Assembly (NCBI GenBank): GCA_964035575.1
Contig: OZ037934.1
Span: forward strand, 806,001-870,000
Direction of reading: 5' to 3'
DNA length: 64,000 nt
Source: Rhynchopus sp. YZ270_cl-10
Lineage: Eukaryota > Euglenozoa > Diplonemea > Diplonemida > Diplonemidae
In this document: piece by piece, positions 5,468 to 49,388 of the stretch
Numbering within the stretch: position 1 is the stretch's first letter
Layout: each line of letters begins with the position of its first letter
Notes under the pieces: model-generated
Told to the model about the DNA's origin: nothing
Database searches by the model: none
The model's input: only the letters and a program-made list of their open reading frames with translations
Translations under genes and position numbers: made by a program

Positions 5468-6877
5468 ATGGAACTCAACATCGAGGGATTTGATGGTAGG
5501 ACGTACGTCGTCGATGTGGATGTGGATGACACAGCGAAGGACCTGCAGCGGAAGGTGGCAACTACAGCGGGGTTTTCTGAAGACAGCTTTGACATGTACG
5601 TCAGAGGGAACGGCAAAGGAGAGGACATCAACATCAAGGCGCTGAGTGCTGGCGGCACAGTCGTATTGAAGCAGTCGAAGAAACAAGAATCCGTTGCAGC
5701 TCTTCATGCATTGGGTGAGAGAGTCCTCACACCAGAGAGGCTTGCGCGTGTGAAAGAGCCCGAGGTAGCGCAGTTGTTTCTGCAGGCAGAAGTTGTAACT
5801 GCGATTCCTCGCAGGTTCCTCGCAAGCACTAATTTACGTAGCCTTGATCTGAGTGCCCCGTTGGCTGTCACTGCGATTGATGACCACTTCTTATCGCAGT
5901 GTTCATCATTGGAATCAATTAACCTGTCTGGGTTGCGCAACGTCACGACAATAGGTGCGTTCTTCCTGCGTGACTGCACGTCATTGCGCACTTTTGAGCC
6001 ATTCCACTTCGCAGGATTGAGCAACGTCACAAGCCTTGGTGACTACTTCTTATCAGGTTGCACGTCGTTAACCTCCATCGACCTTGCAGGATTGGGCAGG
6101 GTTACAAGCCTTGGGAGCTCCTTCTTATCAGGTTGCACGTCGTTAACTTCCATCAACTTCGCAGGATTGAGAAATGTTACAAGCCTTGATGACTACTTCT
6201 TATCAGATTGCACGTCGTTAACCTCCATCAACTTTGCAGGATTGGACAATGTCGCAAGGCTTGGGGACGACGTCTTCTCTCGTTGTACGTCGTTAACCTC
6301 CATCGACTTTGCAGGTTTGGGAAGGGTCACAAGCCTTGGGAACGAGTTCTTATCACATTGCACGTCGTTAACTTCCATCAACTTTGCAGGATTGGACAAT
6401 GTCGCAAGGCTTGGGAAGTACTTCTTATCAGGGTGCACGTCGTTAACCTCAATCAACTTTTCAGGATTGGACAATGTCACAAGCCTTGGTAACTTCTTCT
6501 TATCAGGGTGCATGTCGTTGACCTCAATCGACTTTGCAGGATTGGACAATGTCACAAGCCTTGGTGACCAGTTCTTATTTGAGTGCACGGCGTTGACCTC
6601 CATCAGCTTTGCAGGATTGGGAAGGGTCACAAGCCTTGAGAACTTCTTCTTATCAGGTTGCACGTCGTTAACCTCCATCGACTTTGCTGGATTGGCAAGT
6701 GTCACAAGCCTTGGTGACCTCTTCTTATGGGATTGCACGGCGCTAACCTCAATCGACTTTTCAGGATTGAGTGGTGTGACAGAAATTGGTCACAGCTTTA
6801 TTGATGATTGCGTTTGTTTAGCAACACGCGACCAGTGTATGGAGTGGTATGCATCAAGAAACAATGAGGTTGGATGA
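5468..6877 (+). CDS. Ubiquitin-like + BspA-type LRR protein, gene A
   Basis: 469 residues. Residues 1-75 look like a ubiquitin-fold header: MELNIEGFDGRTYVVDVDVD, then a KDLQRKVATTAG helix and an IKALSAGGTVVL strand. A helical linker with ALHALGERVLTPERL follows, then about 13 leucine-rich modules of 25 residues (75 bp) of the BspA/LRR_5 type, with core FLSGCTSLTSIDFAGL and a variable GLxxVTSLG step. The end caps with IGHSFIDDCVCLATRDQCMEW. There is no signal peptide, so the protein is probably cytosolic. BspA-type repeats usually bind proteins or surfaces; the partner is unknown. The start is fixed by identity with paralogues B, C and D. The repeats are nearly identical at DNA level, so the copy number is likely to change by unequal exchange. 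Confidence 0.85.
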   Translation: MELNIEGFDGRTYVVDVDVDDTAKDLQRKVATTAGFSEDSFDMYVRGNGKGEDINIKALSAGGTVVLKQSKKQESVAALHALGERVLTPERLARVKEPEVAQLFLQAEVVTAIPRRFLASTNLRSLDLSAPLAVTAIDDHFLSQCSSLESINLSGLRNVTTIGAFFLRDCTSLRTFEPFHFAGLSNVTSLGDYFLSGCTSLTSIDLAGLGRVTSLGSSFLSGCTSLTSINFAGLRNVTSLDDYFLSDCTSLTSINFAGLDNVARLGDDVFSRCTSLTSIDFAGLGRVTSLGNEFLSHCTSLTSINFAGLDNVARLGKYFLSGCTSLTSINFSGLDNVTSLGNFFLSGCMSLTSIDFAGLDNVTSLGDQFLFECTALTSISFAGLGRVTSLENFFLSGCTSLTSIDFAGLASVTSLGDLFLWDCTALTSIDFSGLSGVTEIGHSFIDDCVCLATRDQCMEWYASRNNEVG

Positions 6878-7205
6878 GCTGCACTGTACCGCCTTCACTT
6901 CGGTTTGAAGGGTGTGTTGTGGAAGGTGACCAGCCTCCTGGGTTTGTGGTCCGCTCTGCCGAGGGAACACACATTTGGCGTGTGTTGTGGGTCGGGAACG
7001 GGGGAAGGGAGGAGGGAGGGGAGCAAAACATGTTGCGAACGGTACGTTTTTCGCTAGCTTCACACGAAAAAGAAAAAAACAAAACAAAGCATCACCTTAG
7101 CACCACTCCGTATCACGAAAACGGTGTGAGTACCAGGGTAAGGGGAGGAGGTTTTGAAAAGGTGGGCATTCGGGTGAGGGTTATGGAGGGAGGGAAACTA
7201 AGGGT
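6878..7205 (+). repeat. Gene F remnants and 3' cassette after gene A
   Basis: Past the stop, TGTGGAAGGTGACCAGCCTC matches the 5' part of gene F (about 2655-2675). It joins directly to GGTTTGTGGTCCGCTCTGCC (gene F about 3271-3290), and then to the ACACACATTTGGCGTG block of the F 3' flank. A copy of gene F therefore once lay here and lost most of its body in two internal deletions. From about 6968 the sequence follows the 3' cassette with GCTAGCTTCACACG and GTGAGTACCAGGGTAAGG. Confidence 0.65.
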
Positions 7206-7292
7206 TGCATAGAATTTTTCTTACGCCCATTCTTTTGAAAATGTGTCAGTAGGGTAACCAGGGGGTGATTTTTTTGACCAATTTCTTTCCCG

Positions 7293-7494
7293 ATTTTTTG
7301 ATAAAACAACTTGTTGTCAATTCTAAAAAGATTGGAGGCAGCGCTGCAGGGCAAACAAAACGGATTGAAAAAACAGAAGCTTCCTTGTTTTCTTTGAGTA
7401 CTCAATTAACCACAACAACCGTACTTCAGTTTAACACATTTTTCACCTTTTTGTTTTCCCGGCTTTGAGCGCACAAACAAAAGACCCGATCTTT
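7293..7494 (+). repeat. Dispersed repeat shared with 34.55-34.66 kb
   Basis: The blocks GATAAAACAACTTGTTGTCA, ATTGGAGGCAGCGCTGC, AAAACGGATTGAAAAAA and AAAGACCCGATCT occur in the same order at 34,548-34,665, inside the second intron of the GET1-like gene. No coding potential; class unknown. Confidence 0.55.
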
Positions 7495-7759
7495 TTTTTC
7501 CCGTCGCATTTTACGTGTCATCTGCACACACACTGTACTCTTCTGCCACAATGCGAAGCATGTGCGCGCTCGTGTTCTTGGCCAAGCCACAGTACTTCGA
7601 CCCCACAACGCACACTTCACCATTGTCCTAATGGTACCGAGGATGTGCTCTCGAGGTGCCAGGTGTGCGTGCAGAGCTGGTCAATAAAGAGTGGATAGGC
7701 TTTTGAATAGAGCATCACCACTCCCACAACAGAAAACACACAAACCACACAAAACACCA
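7495..7759 (+). promoter_or_regulatory. Shared 5' cassette, copy preceding gene B
   Basis: It matches the block before gene A from about ACGTGTCATCTGCACA onward but lacks the middle part with GACACCTGAGCAGCCC. From CTTCTGCCACAATGCGAAGC to the ATG it is almost identical, with a small extra CACAAACCACA just before the start codon. Confidence 0.6.
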
Positions 7760-8704
7760 ATGGAACTCAACATCGAGGGATTTGATGGTCAGAAGTACGT
7801 CGTCGATGTGGATGTGGATGACACAGAGAAGGACCTGCAGCGGAAGGTGGCAACTACAGCGGGGTTTGCTGAAGACAGCTTTGATATGTACGTCAGAGGG
7901 AACGACGAAGGAGAGGACATCAACATCAAGGCGCTGAGTGCTGGCGGCACAGTCGTATTGACGCAGTCGAAGAAGCAAGAATCCGTTGCAGCTCTTCATG
8001 CATTGGGTGAGACAGACCTCACACCAGAGAGGCTGTGGAGTGTGAAAGACCCCGAGGTAGCGCAGTTGTTTCTGCAGGCAGAAGTTGTAACTGTGATTCC
8101 CCCCAGTTTCCTCTCACGCACGAATTTACGTAGCCTTGATCTGAGTGCCCCGTTGGCTGTCACTGCGATTGCTGACTACTTCTTATTTCAATGTTCATCA
8201 TTGGAATCAGTTAACCTGTCTGGGTTGCGCAACGTCACGACAATAGGTGCGCACTTCCTACGCGACTGCACGTCATTGCGCACTTTTGAGCCATTCAACT
8301 TCGCAGGATTGGGAAGTGTCAGAAAGCTTGGTGACTGCTTCTTATCAGGTTGCGAGTCGTTAACCTCCATCAACTTTGCAGGATTAGGCAGGGTCACAAG
8401 CCTTGGTGACTGTTTCTTATCAGGTTGCACGTCGTTAACCTCCATCGACTTTGCAGGATTGGGAAGTGTCACAAGCCTTCGTGACTACTTCTTATTAGAG
8501 TGCACGGCGTTAACCTCCATCAGCTTTGCAGGATTGGGAAGTGTAACAAGACTTGGGATCTACTTCTTATCAGATTGCACGTCGTTAACCACAATCGACT
8601 TTGCAGGATTGAGTGGTGTGACAGAAGTCGGGTACAGCTTTATTAAAGGTTGCATTTCTTTAGAAACACGCGACCAGTATATGGAGTGGTACAGGGGAGT
8701 TTAA
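7760..8704 (+). CDS. Ubiquitin-like + BspA-type LRR protein, gene B
   Basis: 314 residues, paralogue of gene A. The header (residues 1-75) differs only at a few sites (QKYVV for RTYVV, NDEGED for NGKGED). It has about seven 25-residue LRR modules against about thirteen in A, including degenerate steps such as VRKLGDCFLSGCESLTS. The C-terminus reads RDQYMEWYRGV then stop, where A and C continue MEWYASRNNEVG: the last four codons come from the left end of a transposon inserted here (8692-9720). The coding region is otherwise intact, so the protein probably still folds. The start is set by alignment to A, C and D; the frame is open further upstream but only through the shared leader. Confidence 0.85.
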   Translation: MELNIEGFDGQKYVVDVDVDDTEKDLQRKVATTAGFAEDSFDMYVRGNDEGEDINIKALSAGGTVVLTQSKKQESVAALHALGETDLTPERLWSVKDPEVAQLFLQAEVVTVIPPSFLSRTNLRSLDLSAPLAVTAIADYFLFQCSSLESVNLSGLRNVTTIGAHFLRDCTSLRTFEPFNFAGLGSVRKLGDCFLSGCESLTSINFAGLGRVTSLGDCFLSGCTSLTSIDFAGLGSVTSLRDYFLLECTALTSISFAGLGSVTRLGIYFLSDCTSLTTIDFAGLSGVTEVGYSFIKGCISLETRDQYMEWYRGV

Positions 8705-9720
8705 AATATCGGTTTACCGGTTTCAAAAACCGAAAAATTCGGTTTGAGGATTTTGAAAAAAAAAAAAAAAAAGCTATGGAAAATCTGGATTTTTGAAAAA
8801 AAAAATTTTTTCCTCGTAACAGGGTTTCTGGCCAGAAAAATCCTGTTTTTGCAGATAATGTGACCCCACCATTTGACGGACGGAGCTCGGAGAAGCCAAA
8901 CATGAGTGAGAGAGGAAGGGGAAGTGAGGCCCTGGGATAACCCCATCCCTCAAAAATTCCTTAACACTCTGTGTTAAGGTTTTTAAGGCTGCTTTTGCTA
9001 CGCACCCTGTACCTACACCCCCATACGGGGTCCACCAAAAATCGACATTTCACGCAGAGGCACCAAAGTGTAAGATTTTTTCGGCGTTGGAAAGATTTGG
9101 GCCAAAAAAATGAGGTATTTAGAATACAGTTTTCTGAGAGATTTGTTTTTAATTCCTATTTTCGTGTCGCGAGTTTACGTGGGAAACGCTTTAGAAACGT
9201 GCGTTCCTTAAGGCAAAACGGGCGTTTTTCACCGAAAACCACGAGTTTCAGCCCAAAACCCGGTTTTTTGGGCCCAGACCCGTGTATGTGGCGCCGGAAA
9301 CGCACTTGCGGGGTACCGAAGGTGGGCTGCGGTTTGTAACCACTCGTTGCGTTGCTTGGGTTCCGTTCGATGCATTCAGATCGGTTGCGTTGTGTTGGAT
9401 GCGTTCGTTGCGTTCTGTTCGTGGGTGCCTGTTCGTTTCTGTTCAGATCTTTGCGTACATCAACCACCATCAAGAGGGAGCGTTAATGATCAGCAAAACT
9501 AAATTCTTGCTATTTACAACCCGCCTCAAAAATTCACTTTTTGTAAGAAAATTTTTTAAAAAAGGAACAGAAATCGAAAAAAGTTGTTAAGGGATGAAGG
9601 GTGGGGGGTGGGGCCCGTGAGGGGGCGAGAAAGCTCGGAATTCGCTTTTTTTTTGCCCAAACCGATTTTTTACCTCAAACCGAGTTTTTTGAAAAAAATC
9701 CAAACTTTTAAACTCCCCTG
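8692..9720. mobile_element. Non-autonomous hAT-type DNA element in gene B
   Basis: The 1,029-bp element begins CAGGGGAGTTTAAAA and ends with its exact inverse TTTTAAACTCCCCTG. It is flanked on both sides by the 8-bp duplication GAGTGGTA (8684-8691 and 9721-9728). An 8-bp duplication with CAGGG-type ends is the hallmark of hAT transposons. Subterminal parts are also inverted (TCGGTTTGAGG near both ends). Inside there is no transposase frame, only A/T runs and a GC-richer middle near 9000-9450. The gene A sequence shows the uninterrupted site, TGGAGTGGTATGCATC. A decayed hAT transposase C-terminus lies elsewhere in the window (45.7 kb), but whether it ever mobilised this element is unknown. Confidence 0.85.
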
Positions 9721-10461
9721 GAGTGGTATGCATCAAGAAAAATTGAGTTGTAGGTTCCTTTTGACAGCAGGACGGTGGCCATGGAAGTCGGCATCCGATA
9801 ATGAGCACCGGGTGTGATGCTATGCTGAAAGTGTGGGAGGGTCAGTCCTGAGAGTGGAACACACATTTGTTGTGTGTGTTGTGGGTCGGGAAGGGGGAGG
9901 GAGGAGGGAGGGAGGGTGCAAGATACATTTTTTGCTAGCTTCACACGAAAAAACAAAAAAAAAGGGCAGCAGTCTTCGGACAGGTGCGTAGCGACACCTC
10001 CCTTGCGAGCTCACAGAAGCTAAGTCGTTCATAATTTTTGTGTTGACAGGTCTAGGTTTTAGTTTTTGAAAAGACAAGTAGTGGCCAAAGACTGTTTTGA
10101 TAATAGCAACAGTGGTTAAAACTCTTTACATCTCAGAGGGTCTTGCACTGACGATGTCCCCCTCTGATACTACCAATGTATGCAGTTAGGACTGAAACAT
10201 GATGTACTGAATTTCTAACCAACTACTTTATTTTCTCACGTGACCCCTTTAACCCACCCTATCCCCCAAACTTTGATGATGCAACTTTTGTGTATATTAC
10301 AGCACTTGAATGCATAAACAACAAATAAAAGCGACTTTCCAGAGTTGAGGACGACCTCCGTCTATATCTTTTAAGTACAATAGCCTTCGGGCGACATTGA
10401 GTACAGATCCTGCACTAGCAGGTGATTGTCGACACAACAAAAAAACAAAAACAAAACATCA
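9721..10461. other. Former gene B 3' end, 3' cassette piece, spacer
   Basis: 9721-9754 is the displaced end of gene B (TGGTATGCATCAAGAA). 9754-9958 is a shortened 3' cassette (AGGTTCCTTTTGACAGC, GAGAGTGGAACACACATTTG, TTGCTAGCTTCACACG). The remainder to 10,461 has no recognisable gene or repeat; short open frames there are not protein-like. Confidence 0.55.
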
Positions 10462-24584: not shown

Positions 24585-25372
24585 TGTTTTCAACTTACCT
24601 TCCTTCACCCCCCTGTAAGGGCAACCGTAGGTGAAGTAAGGTATAGTATTGAAATCGATGTGGGGGGGGAGTAAAGGGTCAATTTTACAAAACCAGATTT
24701 TGAGGAAAATTTTAGCCGAAAATGGGCCCCACGTATAAGGAACCGGGCTCATATTTCTCAAAATTTAAGTGGTCAAAAAATTGTCCAATTTTCGAGATTG
24801 ACCCCACCACTGCACGGGCGGAGCCCAAAAATGCAAATAAGGACCCTTTTTCAACTTACCTTCCTTCACCCCCCTGTAAGGGCAACCGTAGGTGAAGTAA
24901 GGTATAGTATTGAAATCGATGTGGGGGGGGAGTAAAGGGTCAATTTTACAAAACCAGATTTTGAGGAAAATTTTAGCCGAAAATGGGCCCCACGTATAAG
25001 GAACCGGGCTCATATTTCTCAAAATTTAAGTGGTCAAAAAATTGTCCAATTTTCGAGATTGACCCCACCACTGCACGGGCGGATCCCAAAAATGCAAATA
25101 AGGACCCTTTTTCAACTTACCTTCCTTCACCCCCCTGTAAGGGCAACCGTAGGTGAAGTAAGGTATAGTATTGAAATCGATGTGGGGGGGGAGTAAAGGG
25201 TCAATTTTACAAAACCAGATTTTGAGGAAAATTTTAGCCGAAAATGGGCCCCACGTATAAGGAACCGGGCTCATATTTCTCAAAATTTAAGTGGTCAAAA
25301 AATTGTCCAATTTTCGAGATTGACCCCACCACTGCACGGGCGGATCCCAAAAATGCAAATAAGGACCCTTTT
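24585..25372. repeat. Three tandem 261-bp units
   Basis: Each unit runs from CAACTTACCTTCCTTCACCC through GGGCAACCGTAGGTGAAG, TAGCCGAAAATGGGCCCCAC, AATTTAAGTGGTCAAAAAAT and GACCCCACCACTGCACGGGC to AATAAGGACCCTTTTT. The units are virtually identical; the clearest difference is GGAGCCC against GGATCCC. A diverged inverse copy lies at about 45,310-45,560 inside the 11-kb element. Not protein-coding. Confidence 0.9.
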
Positions 25373-35747: not shown

Positions 35748-36640
35748 CCCTATTCATCAAACACACACCTTCCCCTTCCCCTTCACCTTCACTTTCATCA
35801 AACAGCCCTTTGTGCACCTTACAACATGTTGCAGAGTTTTGTCGAAGCTCTTTTGTTTTCTATTATTTCGGACGTTAGCTCCAGGCCGAGAAAGAGCAGC
35901 AAGCGAGGGCAACAAGCATCAACAGGTAGAGACGAGGCAGAACGAGCAGCACTCGCAGCAGTGGCAGTCGCAGTCGCAGTCGCAGCAGCAGAATGGAGCT
36001 GCTCCACCGAAGGTGAAGGAGGAGACGCTCAACAACAACAAGGCTTGGCACAGCAGGAGCGGATTGCGCAGGCTGGGGGTGACCGTACCAGGGAGGAAGC
36101 TGCGCCACTGCAGACGGAGCAAGAGGAAAGAGCTTACCTGCCTCCTCTCTACGTCGCGTGAAGGGTTGCGATCGGACACCTCTCTCCTCTGCCTTCTCTC
36201 TTCTCTTGGTCAGTTTCTGAGACTCTCGCCCTTCTGTTTTCGCTCAATTCTGTTGTATGCTCAATGTTAGTGTTTCAAACGTGTAGGGAGACGCGCCTTG
36301 GTTGTTTTGTTTATTTCACTCAATCCCATCCACAGTTGTTGATGCAGCAAAAGTGGATGCAATTCATGCCTGTGGTATCCTACAGGACCCTGGTTTCTGC
36401 TGGGTATTGTTATTGTTGTCCTTTGCATATGTTTAAGCTTTCGAGTCACAGTGAAAAGTGTTTTTCCGTATAAATAACGTCCTCGCGCTGCTAGTGTATC
36501 TGCAGCACGTGGGTACTGTTTTCCTTTTCCTTTTCCTTTTCCTTTCTTTTTCCAGTGAAGCCGCTTTAGAGTATTCTAGTAGGCATTCTTTACTAACCAA
36601 CGTCGTGTACCACTACTTTGCAATTTCCCCCCCCCCCGTG
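35748..36640. other. Duplicated sequence with GCAGTCGCA array; no supported gene
   Basis: A frame over 35,825-36,161 reads Gln/Ala/Val repeats from a CAGTCG array followed by GEGGDAQQQQGLAQQERIAQ and ends at a stop. In copy 2 the same part stays open over a different repeat length. Conservation of the non-repeat end (QEERAYLPPLYVA) in both copies could mean a real exon, but splice context is unclear. Confidence 0.35.
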
Positions 36641-37364: not shown

Positions 37365-38988
37365 AACAGAGATGCGCCGCCGGAGGTGAAGGAGGAGACG
37401 CTCAACAACAACAAGGCTTGGCACAGCAGGAGCGGATTGCGCAGGCTGGGGGTGACCGTACCAGGGAGGAAGCTGCGCCACTGCAGACGGAGCAAGAGGA
37501 AAGAGCTTACCTGCCTCCTCTCTACGTCGCGTGAAGGGTTGCGATCGGACACCTCTCTCCTCTGCCTTCTCTCTTCTCTTGGTCAGTTTCTGAGACTCTC
37601 GCCCTTCTGTTTTCGCTCAATTCTGTTGTATGCTCAATGTAAGTGTTTCAAACGTGTAGGGAGACGCGCCCTGGTTTTGTTCATTTCACTCAATCCCATC
37701 CACAGTTGTTGATGCAGCAAAAGTGGATGCAATTCATGCCTGTGGTATCCTACAGGACCCTGGGTATTGTTATTGTTGACTCTCTTTTCAAAGTTCTTTT
37801 CATCTTTCCATCACTGTACTTGTCCTTTGCAAATGTTTACTGGGGGGGAGCTAATACAAGTACCGGGTACTTGTATTGAGCGGGTAAAACTAATAGATCC
37901 GGGTTTTTCAAAAATAAAAAAGGTGATGGGGGTACTTGTATTAAAAACTTTTTCCCTGTACATTTTGTATGGGGGTAAAATAATTTTTTTTGTATGGGGG
38001 GTATGTAACTTTGTGTATTAGTGTGTAAAATTTGACCGGCCCTTTGGGTGAAAAAAAAAAGAGTGAGGGGAGTTGGGTCCAGTCATAGGGGGTATAGCAT
38101 ATTTTTTGGAAAATTCTTCAAAAAAGCAAGGATTTTTGCTGGGCACAATGAAATTTTCAGAAAATCCCGATTTTCGGCCAAATTTGGAGCAAATTATGAC
38201 CCACCCACCCCGATTTTGGGTCAAAAACCGACTTCATTTTTGCACAGGAGTGCTTACGATTTCGTAAACCAGGGGTCCTCTGGATGCATGCATTGATAAA
38301 CACAACACTGGAAATTGCAAGGAACGGGTCTGCATGCGTGTTCTCTAGCCACTACAGTCACAGGGTATTGCGGCTGAATTTTGACTTGCGAAATTTTTTC
38401 GCGAACATCTATTTCTGAGGTTTTCTTTGGATTCTTTGGGCCATTTTATGACCTACCACGCCCGATTTTGGGCGATAAAACAAAATTTTGTCAGGTCAAA
38501 CTCCGTACTTGTGAAAAGAATTGCTAAGGAAATGTGTAATATGCGTGTTTTTGTACACGAAATGTGGGCCCCTGTAGTAATGCATAAGGTGCATAATGCA
38601 TATGGTTTACACCCAGATCGTCAAAACACCCGATTTTTGCGTTTTTTTGCACTTTTTGGTGCCCAAAAACCCAACTCAGGGGTCGAAATTTTCCCGAAAA
38701 AAAAAATTTTTTTTTTTTTGAGATTTTTTGATTTTTTGACAAGGCGCTGGCCCATACAAAATGCACTGGTGGTACAGAAAATGACTGGGGAATTAACTCT
38801 AGATGCTCAAAACAGCCCAATTCTTGCTTTTTTTGACTTTTTGGTCCCAGAAGGGTGCCTAGGGTGTAGTGAGCAGGCCTCAAAAACAGGGGTGGAGGTG
38901 CGTCTACTGACCCGGTTTCAAAACCGGGTCAAAAAAAAAAAATGGGATTTTGGCGAAAAACCCGCACGGTGCAGTCTGTCCTGGAAAT

Positions 38989-39235
38989 GTCGGACCCCCT
39001 GAGTCCGACAGTCGGACCCCCTGAGTCCGACAGTCGGACTCAGGGGTCCGACTGTCGGACTCACAGTCGGACCCCTGAGTCCGACTGCCGGACCCTGGGG
39101 TCCGACAGGCACACCCAGGTGCCCAGGTACCCAGGTACCCAGGTACCCAGGTACCCAGGTGCCCAGGTACCCAGGTACCCAGGTACCCAGGTACCCAGGT
39201 ACCCAGGTGCCCAGGTACCCAGGTCCAGGTCCAGG
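38989..39235. repeat. TCCGACAGTCGGA palindromes plus CCCAGGTA tandem array
   Basis: 38,989-39,105 holds about seven copies of the self-complementary block TCCGACAGTCGGA or TCCGACTGTCGGA spaced by CCCCTGAG-type linkers. 39,112-39,235 is an array of CCCAGGTA/CCCAGGTG units (about 15). A related palindrome cluster near the other end (47,205-47,338) makes the arrangement roughly symmetrical in the 11-kb element. Confidence 0.85.
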
Positions 39236-40704
39236 AACAGGTACCCAGGAACAGGAAAAAAGTCGTGAAAGAGCAACCACAGCTCCACATGACAAACACA
39301 AAAGTGTCCAGTCACGTGGGGCATTCATGCCCTGAGGAGATAATGATCCAACAATTTACAAGAAAGATTACTTAACCTACTGCTGGAAATTGCCAGGTCG
39401 TAGTAACACACAAAGTGTGCCTCCGTTCGGGAAGACCGGATATTCTAGAGACCAGAAAGGCCTCAAGAATATCTTCCGGTAGTCAAGGTAGAACCGAGTG
39501 AACGGCCCAAGACCCCCGTGGAGAAGTTAAATGTTGTAATGCTATCAGGTAGAAACTGCGAACACTGTCTTACCCTCCTCAATGCATGGTGGTTGATGTC
39601 TTCCACAACAAATTTCCTGTACCCAGGTACCCAAATTCCCAGACCCACGCAGTGGCACATGACCGCCAAGTGTGAGTGACCCACACATGAGGGAATGCGA
39701 CACTACGCAAAATTTACCACCAGACCCTGTCTTCGTGCACCTGAAGTACAACGCCGCAGACAGGCCAAACATGCGTTGGACTCAGAGGAATGCCCGCTGT
39801 GCAGGTATCAAACATGAGAACCAACTCCCAGCAACAAGGGGCGCCTTTTGGCGGGCGTTGTTGAGGGTGTTTGGGGTGCAAAGTTTTCCACAATTTTGAT
39901 GCGCGGGTACAGAAGTGTTGTCTTGTTCTTTCATCTCTAGGAATGTAAATGTCAATCGCGTTTAACTACCACGAGGGCTTGTTTAGTGAACCCACGAGGG
40001 GTCGAAGGGGGTTGGTTATCCCATATCTATCAAAGGTTGTGTCGACCAGGCGAATCCACTATGTTACGCTGTACGTTGTTAAATCCGAAGAAATAACGCT
40101 TTAGCAGCCGCAGGAAGTTTGTTAAAAAGAGTGCCTCACGCTACACAAACCACCACCCGCGATTGACTTAGATGTTATAACAAAGAGAATTCAGAACAAA
40201 ACAACACCCTGCCCCATACACACTAAATTGTCATGCTTCAAGAGCATGCCTGGGCCAAAATTACTGTGACAAAAAGGCAACAAAACCACCCACAAGGAGT
40301 GTGAATTGTGCACTGGTTTTCTGGGGGAACGCAATATTTTCTTGTGCCTCGTCCTCCGCAAGCAGAGGACAGACTTTCCGGAAGGTTTCCAAAGTCGAAT
40401 TTCTTGCACTAGCTATGCTCCCTGGGTTAAATGGCAATAGCAGTGACTGACAAAGTGTACCCATCCCCCTTCCACCCCAGATCTTAGTCCGCAAACTCAG
40501 AATGGATTGATGCGGGTGATACTCTTTGGATTTTGAGTTGCTGAATGTCGGAGACGCGGCGAGGCTTCTCATCACAATCGCAGATGCAGTTCAGATTTCA
40601 CGATCCTGTGATGAGTGTAAATGTGGAGTGTGATTAATGAATGAAATGTATGGTGTAGAAACGCAGTTATCGGGAAAGGTGAGGTTAATGTGGTAAAAAA
40701 AGGG

Positions 40705-41564
40705 GATAAAACTCGTGTAATTTTGTGAATTCCCACAAAGGTGGGTGATAATGTGCCCTTTGTCACTCAATTGTAACCGAGAATGTATGGGAGAATGAAA
40801 TATTATTTCCCAACCCAACAACAACGATAAAGCGTGAAGACAATAAATGAAATCAAAGCGGAATAAATTTGAGGTTTTGTGAGGCACTCAACGAGTGTGC
40901 CGGCTCTGTGGCGTCACGGAGCCACCAACACTCCCCAGTCATTTTTCCTGCGCTTCCAGGAAAACTCGCGTTTGCGACCAGGCCGAAACGAAAAAATTTA
41001 ATTCACAGCAAACAGGTGTGAGGGAGAAGAAAAGAAAGTGAACAAAAACGAAAAAACAATGTTTTTCTGAAATGTGATGTTGTTGGGGTGGGGAGAATAA
41101 AACAGTTCCAGAAAAGCTCCTGCGTCGGTTTTCTTTTGGTTAAAAAAATCACTCAGTAAAAAAAAGAACTTTTTCATCACTCCCCTCAAACACTGCCAAA
41201 ACGAAGAAGGACAGGATGTATGACACTTACGGATACCAAGTCTCAGCGGGTATGAGAAGCAAGGAGGTGTACAAGAAGAAATGGGACGAGTTCTTGCGGT
41301 TTTCAAACCTCGAGCGACTTGGTCCGCTTTGTATTGACACGGACCTCGACACCCCGACATGTACTGGCTTTTGAGAAAGGCAGTCGGTTCCTCGGTAGAT
41401 TGCGTGCAAGTGAGGGAATATCCATCTGCTTGGAAGACGTCAACACACCAAACATAGTATTTCGCGACATAAAGGGCAGATCAAATACTCACTGCCTTAC
41501 ATTCTCGGTTACAATTGAGTGACACAAAGGGCATATAATCTGCAAAATTACACGAGTTTTATTT
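40705..41564. repeat. Inner inverted-repeat pair around a short ORF
   Basis: ATAAAACTCGTGTAATTTTG...TGCCCTTTGTCACTC...GTAACCGAGAAT (40,705-40,785) is the inverse of 41,500-41,564 (ATTCTCGGTTACAATTGAGT, AAAATTACACGAGTTTTAT). It encloses about 710 bp with the ORF at 41,216. It may be a small element in its own right. Confidence 0.6.
41216..41374 (+). CDS. Short ORF with YKKKWDEFLRF motif
   Basis: 52 codons: MYDTYGYQVSAGMRSKEVYK, then KKWDEFLRFSNLERLGPLCI, then a stop. It is too short to judge alone, but a second ORF 730 bp away on the other strand shares the pattern Y(R/K)KxWD(E/D)FLRF. That conserved core, despite different DNA, suggests remnants of one protein family. The helix resembles the core-binding domain of tyrosine recombinases; this is only a hint. 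Probably a decayed element gene. Confidence 0.3.
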   Translation: MYDTYGYQVSAGMRSKEVYKKKWDEFLRFSNLERLGPLCIDTDLDTPTCTGF

Positions 41565-42430
41565 CACTGAGTTAGATAATTATTATCTCATGAAATAAAG
41601 TGAACATTATTTCACGAGGTGGTGGGTGACTCAAACTGGGGCTCAACTTCACGAAGCGAGTGGAGTTCAGCATTTTGATTTCATGAGTGAAGTGAGTGTA
41701 ATCATAAAAGTGATGTCACGAGCGATAGCGAGTGGGTATCACGTATTCCAGTTTGTGAATCACCCATCAGTTAAATAATGTTCACTTTAGTTTTCGATAC
41801 GTAATTTTATACCACGCGTGAAAAACGTAAACAGGTGAAAAAGTGAGTGAAATAAGATTCGTTTTATTTCACGTTTTATTTCACGCAAATCGTGAAGGAT
41901 TGGGTGGGGGAGTGAAATAAAAGATCACGGAGTGATCTGAAGGACACGACGTGTTCTTCCCTGGGCTCGTTCGCTCCTGAAAGTCTGTTGAAACGGAGGA
42001 AATCGTCCCATGTTTTCCTGTACTGCACACCACTGTTCATGTCGTCGAACAAGTTGTCATATGCATCCTCCATCTCCGCAAACTTGCGCGTGGGTTTAGG
42101 CATGTGTGTAAGAGGCAATAAATAATCTGTAATTTGAAGTGTGGTGGTGTGAGGGGTGGAGCGTGGGCTCAACGTTCCACTGTTTACACCTATAAATACG
42201 TTTTTCACTTGTGGAATAAAATTACATATTGAGTGAAATAAGAACATTTTCTTGCACTTGCCACTAGAAAGGCACCCTCGTGACTCTCACTCTTATTCCC
42301 CTCGCTTCGCTCGGGAAATAACGCACTCGGGCACCTTTTTAGTGGCGCGTGAAATAAAATAGTTCTTATTTCACTCGAATAAATAGTTATTATCTCACGG
42401 GCAATAATGTTGTGCTGCGTTTTCGAAATT
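41565..42430. repeat. Region dense in TTATTTCAC / GTGAAATAA
   Basis: The nonamer or its complement, in small variants, appears more than ten times, in both orientations, often near TTATCTCA and GAATAAATA. It overlaps the minus-strand ORF. It may be a set of transposon end motifs or binding sites for an element protein. Confidence 0.5.
41876..42103 (-). CDS. Short ORF with YRKTWDDFLRF motif
   Basis: 75 codons on the minus strand: MPKPTRKFAEMEDAYDNLFD, a segment with QYRKTWDDFLRFNRLSG, and EHVVSFRSLRDLLFH. It is related to the ORF at 41,216 over about 30 residues. The frame is open further upstream with leader-like residues. Product unknown; possible fragment of a recombinase-type protein. Confidence 0.35.
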   Translation of the reverse strand: MPKPTRKFAEMEDAYDNLFDDMNSGVQYRKTWDDFLRFNRLSGANEPREEHVVSFRSLRDLLFHSPTQSFTICVK

Positions 42431-43100
42431 CCTACAGTATATTTGACAAATGATGTATGACCACCTAGTACGGGGCGTCAAGGTTGGGTATGGTGAACAG
42501 TTCCTCGAAGTCCTATGACTGCAACCCTTTTGGTTGCATGCGCAGATCTCCTCCACATTGCTTTTGCGCCTACTCTCGGCATGGGTTTTGTTTTGTTCTT
42601 TGTGTGCGGAGATAATGTCTACTGTATTTTGTGTAATCTCCAGGAAGGAATTTCGAAAACGCGGCTAAACATTATTACACAAGTGAGATAAAAAATTGTT
42701 GGCTCTCTCTCTGTTGTTTTGGCTTTTGTTTTTTTGTCTATTTGTGACGAGGCCTGGAACACCTGAACATAGGCATATCTGGAAAATCTATCTGAGGTGT
42801 GGCAAATTAAATATATTCAAGCGTGTGGTTGAGGCGCACCTAAACATAAGTAAGTGCCAAGTCTGAACATTTATTTTCAGAGGCCTTAGTGAGGCTGTTT
42901 CGGCCTCGTTGCATTGTATCATGATGTAATAAGGTTCACATACTTTCGATTCAAAGAAGAGAAAGCACACAAGAAAATAAAATGCTGCAAACCACTGGGT
43001 GTGTTGTTTGCATCTACACAAGTAACTGAAAGTTAAACATTTACATACCTTGTCTTCCCCGTAGCCTCCGCCTTCGCTGCTGTCAAGCTGCCTTCTCTTG
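42431..43100. other. Interior of the 11-kb element, no feature recognised
   Basis: Mixed-composition sequence without a convincing reading frame or a repeat matched elsewhere in the window. Confidence 0.4.
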
Positions 43101-43234
43101 GTACCCAGTACCCAGTACCCAGTACCCAGTACCCAGTACCCAGTACCCAGTACCCAGTACCCAGTACCCAGTACCCAGTACCCAGTACCCAGTACCCAGT
43201 ACCCAGTACCCAGTACCCAGTACCCAGTACCCAA
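43101..43234. repeat. (GTACCCA)n tandem array, about 19 units
   Basis: An essentially perfect heptamer array, readable as GTACCCAGTACCCA. Apparent proteins in it (GYWVLGT) are artefacts. Related to the CCCAGGTA array at 39.1 kb by the shared CCCAG/GTAC core. Confidence 0.95.
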
Positions 43235-43394
43235 ATTGGTCGCCCCCTGGTTGGTCGAGAACCTAAAAATGCAAAAAAACGCAAAATTCATGTGTTTTGA
43301 CCATGTCTGGGTACACCAAATACACACCTCTGAACAAGCCTATACCCAGTAGTAGGCAACAAGCGCTATTTTTTGACCAAGAAAAAAAAAATCC

Positions 43395-43470
43395 CCCAAA
43401 AATTGGGTGTAGTAGGTCATAAAATGGCCCAAAAAATTCAAAGAAAACCTCAGATTGACCAAACAATGAA
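43395..43470 (-). repeat. Inverse copy of 38,405-38,480
   Basis: GTAGGTCATAAAATGGCCCA and TTCAAAGAAAACCTCAGA are the inverse of TCTGAGGTTTTCTTTGGATT and GGCCATTTTATGACCTACCA on the left side. It adds to the symmetry of the 11-kb element. Confidence 0.65.
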
Positions 43471-43595
43471 AAAAATTTTCAAGTCAAATTTTCAGCCAAA
43501 ATACGGCTATTTTGGTAAAACCATGTGTACTGTAGTGGCTATACAAGGCGATTTTCGGCCAAAAAAATTTTTTTGGCCAAAAAACATAGGGTGAA

Positions 43596-43800
43596 AACGA
43601 TCGTTTTTTTTTTTTTTTTTTTTTTTTACGAATCTGGGAAAAAGTGATCGGTCTTTTTTTTTTTTTTTTTTTTCACGATCGTGAAGAAAAAAAAAACGAT
43701 CGTTTTTTTTTTTTTTTTTTCTTCACGATCGTGAAAAAAAAGCACCTTTTTCTTCACGATCGTGAAGGAAAAAAAAAACGATCGTTTTTTTTTTCCCATA
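43596..43800. repeat. CACGATCGTG palindromes separated by T- and A-runs
   Basis: At least six CGATCG sites, most within CACGATCGTG or ACGATCGT, are linked by T-runs or A-runs of about 9 to 30 bases. The cluster at 47,040-47,145 has the complementary A-run form, again a left-right symmetry. The same CGATCGT motif builds the 179-bp element at 17.0 kb. Confidence 0.8.
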
Positions 43801-45309
43801 TTATGTCGTTGATCGCTGGCCCACACCAGGGAGGGAGCCCCCACAGGTGCCCACAACCCCCCTGAAATCGGCCGAGAGTAACTTTTAGCGGTGTTTTGAC
43901 GTAAAATGTCACCTTTTTTGCCATTTTTGGGGTGTACTTTTCTGGAACAAAATTCGCAAAACCCGAAATACGAATCGTAAAAAATCGCGACATTCTATGA
44001 CATGCGTATACCATGAAGCAGCACGTCACGGCATGGCATGTAACATGCACATGTAATATCGCCAAAAACCTAGTCGTAGTAACATCATCACTGTGCAAAC
44101 CCCTGTCCATCCAATACAATTCACACTCTTTGTGGGTGGTCTTGCTGCCTTTTTGCCACAGTAATTTTTGGCCCGGCAGGCATGCTCTTGAAGCATGGCA
44201 ATTTAGTGTGTATGGGGCAGGGTGTTGTTTTGTTCTGAATTCCCTTTGTTACAATATCTATCCAATCGCGAGTGGTTGTATGTGTATCGTGAGACACTCT
44301 TTTTAACCCTTTACGGACCAAGAGGACATTTATGCCCATTGTGGCGGGGGATGCGGCGTTCAACACCAGGCCAAGTTGGCCAAAAGCCCAACTTTTGTAC
44401 TGTCCAACCTCTGTACAATTACGGTATATTTCGTTGGCTGGTGGTCTGAAGAGTGATCTGACCATATTCTCCAGGTATAACAAATGCCCAAATAATGCAT
44501 TGGCGAAGGAATTTTGCACTTTTGACCATCACACATTACTTGTATTTTTACCGGTTTTTTAATGAGTACAACCTATGTCAGAGCACGCTGTCCCACAGAT
44601 TTTAGAATTTGGGGGGGTCACGCAACAGGGATTACGCAGCTCCCCATACTTATCGCTAAATATGCCGTTTTCCCCGAAAAATTTTAGAATTCCACGCCCA
44701 ATTTCTTTCTTTTTGGCAAAAAAAAATTTTTCGCGCTTCGCGCGAAAAAGGTCCTCAGAAGCTCAATTCCGGAAACAAATACGGGGGGAGCGACGTTTTC
44801 CAACTCCTCCGCCATCAGCAGGAACACCTCCGTTTTCTCTTGAATCTGGGACGCTTGTTGCTGAGAAACAGGGCAACAGCGCGTTCAAGCATATTCCCCA
44901 TCTTTTCAGTGTTAAACTCGTGGCGAAGCCACGGTACGCAACATTTCTAAAAATTGCGCTTAAAATTGCCTACTATGTCGCGGGAAGGGTGGGTTGAAAG
45001 CTCGCGCCGCAGTGCATCTTCCTTTTCCGGTAAAATAGAAGAAAATTGTCTTCTAAAAATAGAATTCTGTGGGGGGTAGGTGAGAGGTGGGCGGAGCCCC
45101 CACTCCTCCACCCCAGCCTCAATCCAAAACCCTGTATTTTTTTTTTTTGGTATTTTTTGAGCTGAGATTTTCAAAAAATACCAAAAATACCAGGGTCAAC
45201 CGCTGTGATGCTCATTGTTTAGAACACAGGGCTATTTCTAAATATGGGGTCCGGAGTCCAAAATCCAATCCGGGACACAATTTTGGCAGATTTATTTTGG
45301 GCCAAAAAC

Positions 45310-45560
45310 GTCTTTATTTACATTTTTGGGATTCGCCCGTGCAGTGGTGGGGTCAATCTCGAAAATTGGATTTTTTGACCACTTAAATTTTGAGAAATAT
45401 GAGCCCGGTCACTTATACGTGGGCCCATTTTCGGCTAAAATTTTCCTCAAAATCCGGGTTTGTAAAATTGACCCTTCTGTGAAGGAAGGTTGTGGAAAAG
45501 GGTCCTTATTTGCATTTTTGGAAGCCGCCCGTGCAGTGGTGGGGTCAATTTGCAGAATTG
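45310..45560 (-). repeat. Inverse diverged copy of the 261-bp unit
   Basis: CCCGTGCAGTGGTGGGGTCA, TTTTTTGACCACTTAAATTT, TACGTGGGCCCATTTTCGGC and GGGTCCTTATTTGCATTTTT correspond to the inverse of the units at 24.6-25.4 kb. The GTGCAGTGGTGGGGTCAAT block occurs twice, so a piece of a second unit follows. Confidence 0.7.
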
Positions 45561-45679
45561 GGCAAGTTCTTGCAAGACAACGGGTAATGTTTGTTAGCTC
45601 TAAGGAGGGAAGGGGAGCGTTTGTAGCTCACACAGCACCCCAAACCCTGGCCTCTCTGTCCACAGCACACAGCTCTTCC

Positions 45680-45980
45680 CCTGAGTTCCATTTGTGCCTC
45701 AACATGCTGAGCGCATCTTCAGTACGATGGGTGGATGAGCGAGAAGAGGCGCAACTGGCTAGTTGCACCAAAGCTGCACAAGCTTGTGGTCGTAGCACGC
45801 AGTTTGCGCGAGAGCAAGCCGCCACAAGAGAATGGTTGGTGGGATGAGGAGAAGCTGGTGCAGGAGGAGAAGGAGCGTGCGGGAGCTATATTGACTGCGA
45901 CGCGACAGCTGAGGACCCCAAGGTTGATGATGATGCTGAGCATCACGACTCTGACATCAGTGAAGGCTCTTGGGACTAAA
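45680..45980 (+). pseudogene. hAT transposase C-terminal remnant
   Basis: The segment encodes AERIFSTMGG and, in the neighbouring frame, KRRNWLVAPKLHKLVVVARS. Together these match the dimerisation motif at the end of hAT transposases (family pattern: ERxFSxxGxIxxxKRNRLxxxKxxxLxxxRxNL). An in-frame stop after MGG separates the halves, and nothing upstream continues the DDE/RNaseH-like domain, so only the tail survives. An acidic end follows (DEEKLVQEEKERAG in the second frame). It shows that hAT enzymes once existed in this genome, in line with the hAT-type element at 8.7 kb. Confidence 0.55.
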
Positions 45981-46114
45981 CGCATACAGTCTTGTCCGTA
46001 CCCATTTCTCCCACACAAGTCACCACCCCCTTGTGACTTGCCTGTAACAGTGGAAACGTTTCCCTCCCAGCCGCAAACCCGTTCAGTGTATCGTGAGCCA
46101 CTGCAGTGACCCAC

Positions 46115-47039
46115 TCACGCTCGACCCTGTCCCTCCTTGTAAACAGTTCGCCTTCTCCTACGTTGTGCTAAGGAAAACCAAAAAACATGCTCAAAAATGA
46201 TGGGCACGGGGGTCAGACTCCACTTCTGACCACTTAAAATTAGGTCATACACGTGTTATACCCCAAACTGACCAAGAAATTTTCCCAGTGTTCGATGGTG
46301 ATCGAATTAAATCGGTGGTAAAAAGTGAAAAATGGGGCATGCCAGGCCCACGTCAATCAGCCTAAAAATGTTGCAACTTTAAACGCGCGTCTCTCCCGTA
46401 CACCAATATACACTTTTTAACACATACAGTACAGCAAGGGAAAACCAAGGGATTTTACCCTGTGTTCTCCTTGTTACGGCTGCACTAACCTAATCATCAA
46501 AACTGCTCGATTTTGGCTTTATCTAAAAGATCGACATCAATTCTTACGAAATATAATTTATTTTACGATTTTGAGTAGAATTCTGTTTGCAGGGCGAAGT
46601 CACGAGGCAGGGGGTGATTTTGGGGGTGAGCGCCAAAAAAAGTCCTTTTCCTAGGGTTGACCCACCTCCCTCCAGCATCCAACGATATGACATTTTCACG
46701 AAAGTTGTCGATTCTTGCCTTATTATTGTCACACAGAAAAAAAATGTTTTTACGAAAATGAGTAGAACCCCATTACCCCTACCAACGTGTGGCATTCGTG
46801 CGCCACTATAGTGGCACTTGCCATGGGTAAAAACGGTTTTCTGGTTTTAGTGCCTCGCTGGCGACATCCGTTGGGGGGGATTCTGGTGTGAGAATGTTCT
46901 CGATTTTTGCTTTATTTGAAAGATTCGCCACAAAATCGTTTCAAGGAAAAGAGTCGGTCAAAAATTCCAAGTAGAACCCAGAAACTCTCCCTTGCCACCC
47001 ATTTCACGCCCATGCCCCTTGTACTACTAGGGGAAAAAA
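46115..47039. other. Interior of the 11-kb element, low-information sequence
   Basis: No gene. TCGATTTTTGCTTTATTTGA-like and CGATTCTTGCCTTATTATTG-like lines recur loosely (about 46,505, 46,706, 46,897), each followed by a run with ACGAAA; this may be a degenerate repeat. Confidence 0.35.
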
Positions 47040-47340
47040 AAAAAAACGATCGTGAAAAAAAAAAAACGATCGTGAAAAAAAAAAAAAAAATGTCAAGATC
47101 TTGAAAAAAAGTTCAAGATCTTGAAAAAAACCGTCACGATCGTTCTCACACTATGAAAAAAAAAATTTTTTTTTTTCGGCCCAAAAAAAAAAAAAATTTT
47201 TTTTTTGGGTCCGACTGTCGGACCCCAGAGTCCGACAGTCGGACTCCAGAGTCCGTCTGTCGGACTCCAGAGTCCGACAGACGGACCCCTGAGTCCGTCT
47301 GTCGGACTCAGGGGGTCCGACTGTCGGACTCAGGGGGTAA
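47040..47340. repeat. CGATCGT, CAAGATCTTG and TCCGAC palindrome clusters
   Basis: 47,040-47,145: CGATCGTGA between A-runs, then two TCAAGATCTTGA palindromes. 47,205-47,338: about eight TCCGACAGTCGGA / TCCGTCTGTCGGA blocks with CCCAGAG or CTCCAGAG linkers. It then passes into GACCGCACCGTGCGG. It mirrors the clusters at 43.6 kb and 39.0 kb. Confidence 0.8.
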
Positions 47341-48220
47341 GTCCGTTATTTACACACTCCAAGCACGACAGACCGCACCGTGCGGTTTGGAAAAAAAAAA
47401 AAAAATGGGATTTGGAATTTTGGGAGAAAATCGATTTTTTTTGGTACCTCACACGAGCCTCTGAGAGTGACCAGAAATGGCCTCATGAACAAAGTGACCC
47501 CGTCACAGCCAGAACGCGACTCAATTAGTCAAACGCCGAAGGAAAAGGAAGCATGCAGCATGGCGAAATAATAAAAGTAGCGTACCGTGCGCCTGCGGCG
47601 CAAGATTGCAAGCTTGCAACCCACCCCAAAATGTACAATTTTAAGCGCATTTTTTTTGAAATGTTGCGTACCGTGGCTTCGCCAGGAACCTTTGGGGCCA
47701 TGACCGCCGAGAAATCCACTTTTGCCGAGTGCGTGAAGTTCGGTGTGCTGCACAAAGGGGGAACATGGACCCTACTCCCCTTCATCAAGGCACAAACGCT
47801 GTTGCGCAAGTTCCCCGCCAAAGAAGTGTAATAACCAGGTCGCACATGCAGTGTCATTTTCGCGCGCAGCGCGAAAATTTTTTTTTTTGACCCCAAAAAG
47901 CTCAGACCGGGTCAAACCGGGTCTTTTTTGAAAATCCCAAATCTATCTCCATCTCTGCTCAAAAACACTTGTGAAAAAAAAATTTTGGGATTTTTTTTTT
48001 GGAGATTTTTTCAAAAATCGACTTGTTTTTGGTAAAAATCACGAAATTTTGGGTTCGCGGAACCGCGTTTTAGACCCCCTAGATGCTCAAAAGTGCCAAA
48101 TTTTGCTTTTAATGGCCTCAAATCGTCGAAATTAGCCCAATATAGGGGCAAAAAAAAAAATTCGAGGGTCTAGGTATGGAGAGCGAGCACCTTAGAAGCG
48201 TCGTAGGCAACCCGTGTTTT

Positions 48221-48315
48221 TTGTGTATAAATAGTACCCGGTCAAAATGCCGGTCAAAATGGGGTGCCGGTCAAATTACATACCCTATTTTGACCGGGTA
48301 CTATTTGTACACAAA
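48221..48315. repeat. Hairpin with TAGTACCCGGTCAAAAT arms
   Basis: TTTGTGTATAAATAGTACCC..GGTCAAAAT is followed about 35 bases later by the inverse ATTTTGACCGGGTACTATTT..TGTACACAAA. CCGGTCAAA also recurs at 48,262 and 48,373. It is a subterminal feature of the 11-kb element. Confidence 0.7.
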
Positions 48316-48594
48316 AATACCCGATTTTTTCGGGAATTTTTGACAACACACTGGTTGAGTTACCGGTCAGAACCGGTCAAATTACATACCCCCCTATGGG
48401 ACAACGCCTTAGCAAAAATCCGAAAAATCGAGAAAAGAGAAAAGGTGTGAAGCAGGCTTCGCGCTAACTTTTGGAAAAAATCTGAAAAATCATGTTTCGG
48501 GCCCAAAAAAACGCACCTCAAATAGTTGCGACGGGTAACGTCTGGGGTGAAAAAACAGTGTTTTGTGGCATTTCTGAGACAATCCCGCGCTGTG

Positions 48595-48840
48595 GTGGGG
48601 CATATTCGGGAAAATGGACAAAATTTTAGTGACTTAAATTTTCACAAAATATGAACCCAGACTCCTAAACAAGGGGCATTTTCAGTCTGAAAACCCAATT
48701 TCAGATGAAATTGTGGTGTTTTTGACTGGGAACGGTAGCGCCGCAGGTGCACGGTACCCAACTTTTTTCGTTTTTTTTCTTTTCTCTGGTTTCTTTTGAT
48801 TGCGAGAGCTGATTGCTCTCCACGGTGGGGTCACATGTGG
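48595..48840. repeat. Dispersed ~260-bp repeat, copy 2
   Basis: Same order of blocks as 24,220-24,460, ending in GATTGCTCTCCACGGTGGGG; the terminal hairpin found in copy 1 is not present. Confidence 0.75.
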
Positions 48841-49193
48841 GTACAAAAACACTCTAAAGTACCCTTACTATGAAATATGAGATTCTCTGGTTTTGGTAAA
48901 GAACCCCGGTTTGCAAAAAACGCACCACAAAAATATCCAAAAATCCCGGGCCAAGGGCCAACAATTAGCGCAAAGCCTGGCACCGAAATAGAAAAAAAAA
49001 ATTCTCGATTTTTGTGGTAAAAATTGCTGGGAAAATTTTTTTGGCACCACCTGCTAAGAAAAACGTACACAAAAGTGGGGGGTACTTGTATTAAAAATAT
49101 AAATTAATTTAAATCGAAAAACCCGGGGGGTACTTGTATTTGCAGGGGTACTTGTATTACCCGGGGGTACTTGTATTAGCCCCCCCCCCCCAG

Positions 49194-49388
49194 TAAGCTT
49201 TCGAGTCACAGTGAAAAGTGTTTTTCTGTATAAATAACGTCCTCGCGTTGCTAGTGTAATCTGCAGCCCGTGGGTACTGTTTTCCTTTTCCTTCTTTTTC
49301 CAGTGGCACAAAGTGTTTGAAGCCGCTTTAGAGTATTCTAGTAGGCATTCTTTACTAACCAACGTCGTGTACCACAACTTTGCAATTT
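49194..49388 (+). repeat. Resumed target of the 11-kb insertion
   Basis: TAAGCTTTCGAGTCACAGTG through CGTCCTCGCGTTGCTAGTGT to ACCAACGTCGTGTACCAC matches 36,434-36,625. It is the right part of segmental-duplication copy 2, separated from its left part (ending 37,839) by the element. Confidence 0.85.

Follow-up and report, generated by a model that had tools for sequence, protein, structure and literature searches.

The Locus and Its Outermost Element

The window analyzed here is a stretch of 64,000 nucleotides from the diplonemid Rhynchopus sp. YZ270_cl-10 (GenBank assembly GCA_964035575.1, contig OZ037934.1, here C102, positions 806,001–870,000), and the assembly searched with it comprises 152 Mb in 126 contigs. 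Between positions 37840 and 49193 of the window lies an interval of about 11 kb bounded by terminal inverted repeats (TIRs), which is read here, at a probability of about 96%, as a five-layer nest of different DNA transposons inserted one after another, named from the outside inwards L0, L1, Lh, L2 and L3. The ends, target site duplications (TSDs), empty sites, copy families and nesting order of all five layers were observed directly. No strand is assigned to the elements, to their subterminal arrays or to the empty site of L0.

The outermost element, L0 (37840..49193), starts at 37,840, where the left border reads TTTA followed by CTGGGGGGGAGCTAATACAAGTACC, and ends at 49,193, where GTATTAGCC runs on to CCCCAG and is followed by TAAG, with TA flanking the element at 37,838–37,839 and at 49,194–49,195. 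Once joined, the flanks align with 36.23–36.63 kb (within 36.2–36.7 kb), a paralogous empty site (36421..36625) in which a single TA is present. A sequence-only reading of the same DNA had already proposed the inverted ends, the TA borders and the empty site, and all three were borne out by border reads and flank alignment. The segmental duplicate with its single TA was also found, but not the recent age proposed for it: 369 of 443 alignment columns are identical and there are 53 gap positions, so the duplicate carrying the empty site is not very young.

The left end was searched in the genome with 37,800–38,100 as query, and the best 40 of 450 candidates were scored, giving a lower bound. At least 35 other places match 109–179 bp of the left end with 96–100% identity, which exceeds chance, and in none of the 35 does the match extend past 37,998; four more places match the query only from 37,977 or 37,994 onward and are copies of the second element. 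For the right end (best 40 of 271 candidates scored), the copies match only to about the border, one extra row being the window's own empty site. Since 48,395 follows immediately upon 37,998 in the short L0 copies among the fetched loci, the own sequence of L0 is about 0.95 kb (37840–37995 plus 48395–49193) and the intervening 10.4 kb is an insertion. Of the distinct places at which the left end was read, 10/10 have TTA as left flank, and of those read at the right end, 8/8 have TAA as right flank; L0 thus makes a TA duplication inside TTAA.

The outer TIRs of the window belong, in the copies read, to an element of about 0.95 kb without the window interior. The genome search for other TA-flanked copies of the ends that had been suggested did return copies, without that interior, and the idea of a giant non-autonomous family had to be abandoned, with 35/35 scored left-end copies stopping by 37,998 and no long interior shared among them. 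Other elements own most of the 11.35-kb interior.

Four Insertions inside L0

L1 is inserted in L0 (37996..48394) and has about 1.33 kb of own sequence, with ends GGGGGGTATGTAA and TTACATACCCCCC and the 3-bp TSD TAT. A 3-bp TSD was found in 3/3 copies with both ends read (TAT on both sides in the window, AAT in locus L059 and TAT in L060), while loci L061 and L062 showed one end only. A TSD of 6 bp, taken from the overlap in short copies, was cut to 3 bp after reading other copies. The empty site was recovered as the exact un-inserted 24-mer in 13 fetched L0 loci, corresponding to 9 distinct places. The L1 copy of L059 (949–1662) carries an insertion of about 0.7 kb that is 83% similar to window positions 4299–5054.

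Lh, in turn inserted in L1 (38887..47957), is a hAT-like element with 653 bp of own sequence, ends CAGGGGTGGAGGT and ATCTCCATCTCTG and the 8-bp TSD CTCAAAAA. In L1 copies, position ~38,888 is joined to ~47,958, which is the site of Lh in the window. Four copies were read, all with ends CAGGGG..TCTCTG and an exact 8-bp TSD (CTCAAAAA in the window, GTACGTTG, AGTGGACG and TTCTCAAC in the other three, which are 649–653 bp long), and Lh matches 39 other scored places at 94–99% (best 40 of 2,536 candidates). An assignment to Mutator-like elements with a 9–10-bp TSD, based on overlaps, was dropped, as the CAG..CTG ends give the exact 8-bp TSD in 4/4. The Lh empty word was found in six loci, namely the L1 copies L059–L062 plus L039 and L063.

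L2 is inserted in Lh (38965..47382) and contributes 4,847 bp of own sequence, with ends CACGGTGCAGTCTGTC and GACAGACCGCACCGTG and the 2-bp TSD CG. Subterminal palindrome arrays of GTCCGAC units lie 24 bp inside its left end (38989..39106) and 53 bp inside its right end (47209..47329). For the segment 39,250–43,100, full-length matches at 99–100% were obtained at 37 other scored places (best 38 of 2,887 candidates), and nine aligned copies differ from the window copy by 0–6 mismatches in 3,851 bp. A 2-bp TSD was present in 13/13 places with both ends read (CG in the window; TA, CA, CA, CA, CA, TA, AA, TG, CA, CA and CA elsewhere; TG in contig C8); in L019 just one of the ends was seen. Three Lh copies carry the empty site AAAACCCGGTTTGG. 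In addition, the 16-base end CACGGTGC occurs 94 times forward and 97 times reverse in the genome, or about 95 pairs, with none for the reversed control; in the list of 100 places, most neighbours form inverted pairs at a spacing of about 3.8–18 kb. Miniature end pairs of 121–143 bp lie on contigs C1, C20 and C37 (those of C1 and C37 were read). The window copy of L2 is defective. Its (GTACCCA)n array (43101–43233) is several hundred bp longer in L019 and L023; this length change in near-identical copies marks it as a fast-changing repeat.

The innermost layer, L3 (43585..47155; 3,571 bp), is inserted in L2 and has ends CATAGGGTGAAAACGATCG and CGATCGTTCTCACACTATG, the 6-bp TSD AAAAAA, a left subterminal CGATCG palindrome array (43598..43784) and right subterminal CGATCG sites (47047..47142). 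Its end occurs 66 + 67 times in the genome, with 0 for the control, and the stretch 44,300–47,030 has end-to-end counterparts of 99–100% identity at 29 other places. A 6-bp TSD was found in 8/11 loci (AAAAAA in the window, then TTTTTT, TTTCCT, AAAAAT, TTTTTT, TTATTA, ATTATT and AAAAAA); L030 (one end only), L035 (flanks equal to those of L034) and L037 (L028 again) were left out of this count. The exact L3 empty site is present in nine other L2 copies. A sequence of about 190 bp is common to L2 and L3 in inverted orientation (40121–40309 and 44116–44307, about 90% identical), and it is also found in an L2-ended element on contig C4.

The palindrome arrays had been described as symmetric within one unit. 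In the 11.35-kb unit their placement is asymmetric (1,149 bp to the left end, 1,864 bp to the right end); they are the subterminal regions of the inner elements L2 (GTCCGAC) and L3 (CGATCG). Nor is the interval a single 11.35-kb element, since ends, a TSD and an empty site can be given separately for each of the four inner insertions it holds. What stands of the proposed single insertion event is that a TIR element with a TA TSD was inserted and its empty site kept.

Un-inserted sequence was thus found for all five layers, for L0 in the window and for L1, Lh, L2 and L3 in 9, 6, 3 and 9 places elsewhere. L0 entered the genome at TA; L1 then inserted into L0 with a duplication of 3 bp, Lh into L1 with one of 8 bp, L2 into Lh with one of 2 bp, and L3 into L2 with one of 6 bp. 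None of the five window copies would make its own enzyme, and each presumably depended on a complete relative for its movement in trans.

Several points weigh against the nest. One of the 10 L0 places read, L010, does not have the exact L1 empty word, and L1 is known from three full copies only. Two of the six loci counted for the empty site of Lh, L039 and L063, were included on the exact word alone. No TSD of L3 was found at L029, L063 and L064, and homopolymers make up four of its eight TSD matches. There may also be an assembly error at the junctions, although independent copies match every one of them.

The intact ends of L0 with their matching TA would also suit an interval whose whole 11.35 kb moves as one composite by means of these ends. 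Among the scored copies, no other L0 end pair was seen by eye near 11.35 kb apart, the widest being about 3.6 kb (contig C62), and the unit of 11,354 bp was found once, in the window. Furthermore, 0 of 37 other scored L2 places and 0 of 29 end-to-end L3 places lie beside L0 ends. Movement as a composite is therefore considered very improbable, and the interval is best described as five separate insertions.

Candidate Transposase for L2

Two larger L2-ended elements with 2-bp TSDs carry a transposase-like gene together with a companion gene. In the element at C4:1,032,526–1,041,361 (8,836 bp, TSD CA), the transposase-like gene is broken into two frames, whereas it is intact in the element at C8:177,189–188,558 (11,370 bp, TSD TG) and encodes 639 aa from its Met. 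The Repbase family rule, as given in PMC4455052, asks for the same TSD length and terminal bases with few mismatches; L2 and the C8 and C4 elements have equal TSD lengths and at most one mismatch in the terminal 11 bp. The 40.45–43.28 kb part of L2 has no counterpart in the C4 element among the matches listed. A third copy of the transposase-like gene, at contig C97, has exactly the sequence of database entry P0001, one residue away from that of C8.

With the N-terminal part as query, 74 genome matches were obtained, many in open frames of about 500–750 aa. In searches of 5.8 billion proteins, this N-terminal piece had no homologue, and the rest of the protein found only P0001 (itself) and P0002 (7,998 candidates scored). 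The L2-type protein had no match in viral contigs and no Pfam transposase match, and a profile search of the PDB returned mainly zinc fingers and no transposase. In an alignment of P0001 with eight others (n = 9), D103, D190-H191, H206, C211, H223, H257-D258, H378, H382, D396-E397, E400 and R406-K407 are invariant in 9/9. Several of the nine have a C-terminal C2H2-type zinc finger (zf-Di19 in 5/9, at E up to 1), and weak helix-turn-helix (HTH) matches were seen in one protein each (HTH_3, E 0.041; HTH_31, E 0.3).

The companion gene lies upstream on the same strand, directly in C6, C19 and C22, at about 0.75 kb in C4 and at about 5 kb in C8. The C6 and C8 companions come from two subfamilies and are homologous, with 24% over 212 columns at E 1e-11, and neither matched a Pfam family. 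Inside the C4 element there is also a 649-aa open reading frame (ORF) with repeated SGYSNT motifs (locus L038, 7057–9006); the ORF list for the C8 element shows no such frame.

Taken together, the mover of L2 is probably an undescribed transposase, of which the genome still encodes an intact copy, and the earlier suggestion of an undescribed enzyme agrees with this in that at least one enzyme involved, the L2-type protein without a Pfam transposase match, looks undescribed. It counts against this assignment that the C8 protein is linked to L2, as its mover, through shared termini only. A DDE-type enzyme with an HTH-like N-terminus and C-terminal zinc fingers would bind the CACGGTGC ends and also the palindromic subterminal arrays, perhaps with the companion protein, and would excise L2 and join it across a 2-bp stagger. 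The arrays may serve as binding sites by analogy with other transposons with subterminal repeats.

Possible Relation of the L2-Type Protein to RAG1, Transib and CACTA

According to PMC12730594, the RAG1/Transib/CACTA (CMCT) clade has a DDE triad with C(2)C and H(3–4)H between the second D and the last E, mostly CA..TG termini, and TSDs of 2–5 bp. The ends of L2 (CACGGTG..CACCGTG) are CA..TG as well, and with its 2-bp TSD they fit this description. The DDE, C(2)C and H(3–4)H pattern is complete in P0001, in the order D-D-C(2)C-H(3)H-E, and D103, D190, C211, H378, H382, E397 and E400 are invariant in 9/9 aligned relatives, in the RAG1/Transib/CACTA order. With RAG1 numbered as in the full-length chain 9jpu, D190-x17-C208-x2-C211 of P0001 compares with D708-x18-C727-x2-C730, H378-x3-H382 with H937-x4-H942, and the ExxExxN motif (DExxExxN) around E400 with E959-x2-E962-x2-N965. 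The RAG1 residues compared are presumably those with catalytic roles. As second D, D258 (LHDLKG) had been considered and was replaced by D190, RAG1 D708 being located in GTGYD, 19 residues before CTLC.

These residues suggest that the L2 transposase belongs to the CMCT clade, a lead and not a result, with odds slightly better than even. Opposed to it, hhalign of the nine-sequence profile against one RAG1 core gave a probability of 0.1% and E 0.57 in the wrong region, so that no profile similarity to RAG1 was detectable; C208 is Cys in only 3/9 relatives, which leaves C(2)C in those three; no transposase was returned by the Pfam and PDB searches described above; and 76 of 5000 shuffles of the protein matched a loose DDE/C(2)C/H motif. 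A search with PF02992 gave no match, and its control gave no match either. The failed comparison with RAG1 and the lack of homologues favour a separate DDE lineage, or a protein that is not DDE at all, whose residue order arose by chance or convergence. This is a tentative alternative, against which speak the CMCT order of seven acidic, His and Cys residues that never vary in the alignment, the CAC ends and the 2-bp TSD.

L2 works like a cut-and-paste CAC-ended transposon, and its membership of CMCT is possible and not established. With a chance just short of even, L2 and its relatives (74 protein matches) could form a new deep lineage of RAG1/Transib/CACTA type beyond the reach of the profiles used. 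Its traits would be CACGGTG ends, a free 2-bp TSD, extensions of HTH and zinc-finger type, a companion protein that is conserved, and subterminal palindrome arrays that act as binding sites. We take CACGGTG to resemble the heptamer of the recombination signal sequence and a Transib end. No description of CACGGTG ends was found in a literature search of limited reach, and no wider claim of absence from print is made. The 2-bp TSD of L2 is not TA alone, as it is in ESTA according to PMC12730594, and it differs from the 5-bp TSD given for Transib and RAG-like elements in PMC12730594 and PMC7204232.

Comparison of the Other Layers with Known Superfamilies

The TSD length and the CAG start, with CAG..CTG ends that we assume to be hAT-like, point to Lh as a hAT-like element, present here as a 650-bp copy without coding capacity; the G-rich ends of L1 are presumably Harbinger-like. 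In PMC12730594, 8 bp is the usual hAT length, as found in 4/4 Lh copies, and 3 bp is canonical for Harbinger, as found in 3/3 L1 copies with both ends read, although the TSDs of L1, TAT and AAT, differ. L0 shares its TA TSD with Tc1/mariner and other TA-duplicating elements, whereas its target is TTAA in all places read. Since PHIS and ESTA elements also have TA TSDs (PMC12730594), TA does not decide the class of L0. L3 shares a 6-bp TSD (8/11 loci, 4 of them homopolymers) with IS3EU and other 6-bp-TSD superfamilies, but its CATAG..CTATG ends differ from the TAYGG..CCRTA ends of the fungal IS3EU families in PMC12730594.

No transposase of its own was found for L3 in the three large L3-ended elements read (L039, L063 and L064). 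L039 has a 238-aa ORF with a sub-threshold match only (DUF7793, E 0.16), which the last part of the 649-aa ORF of the C4 element resembles by eye, and L063 has no ORF above 180 aa. In L064, an inserted 1,180-aa ORF (5595–9134) matches UCH (2e-14) and, weakly and below the cut-off, RVT_1 (4e-4); a RAG1 match to its UCH part (E 0.031) is below the cut-off and probably due to chance.

Other Features of the Window

Inside L2, on the minus strand, lies a tyrosine-recombinase-like gene remnant corresponding to an N-terminal part (41879..42103, 75 codons). Over 58 residues it shares 44% identity with frames of 357 aa that occur at 54 places, and it is 42% identical to a 55th. The one such frame read, in L069 (265–1338), matches PF00589 Phage_integrase (3.3e-9) and shows the R..HxxR..H..Y residues by eye; given this homology and domain match, the remnant is a decayed tyrosine-recombinase gene within L2. 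The frames have one length at all 55 places, and two of them are inverted near both ends of an L3-ended element at C11:96159–102539.

Elsewhere in the window, a segment in three copies 261 bp apart (24674–25372) recurs in the large L3-ended elements L039 (2936–3204), L063 (1453–1719) and L064 (1884–2155). The sequence at 9948–10451 (about 490 bp) recurs twice in L039 (4886–5385 and 7038–7523) as direct repeats around 1.65 kb, resembling long terminal repeats. A BspA-type leucine-rich-repeat gene is located at 50.1–51.1 kb, with similar frames seen by eye at 5.4–12.6 kb.

Significance

Nested transposons are ordinary in kind, and it is the readability of this nest that is unusually complete. 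It works as a relative clock: with five insertions and as many readable empty sites, the activity of five families within a single genome can be put in order. It also illustrates that a transposition unit is not defined by outer TIRs and an empty site. The L2-type transposase lineage deserves a structural and biochemical test. If its proposed kinship is true, it would be an independent, probably recently active system outside the well-studied lineages, bearing on what determines TSD length in RAG1/CACTA-type enzymes and on the way they recognise CAC ends.

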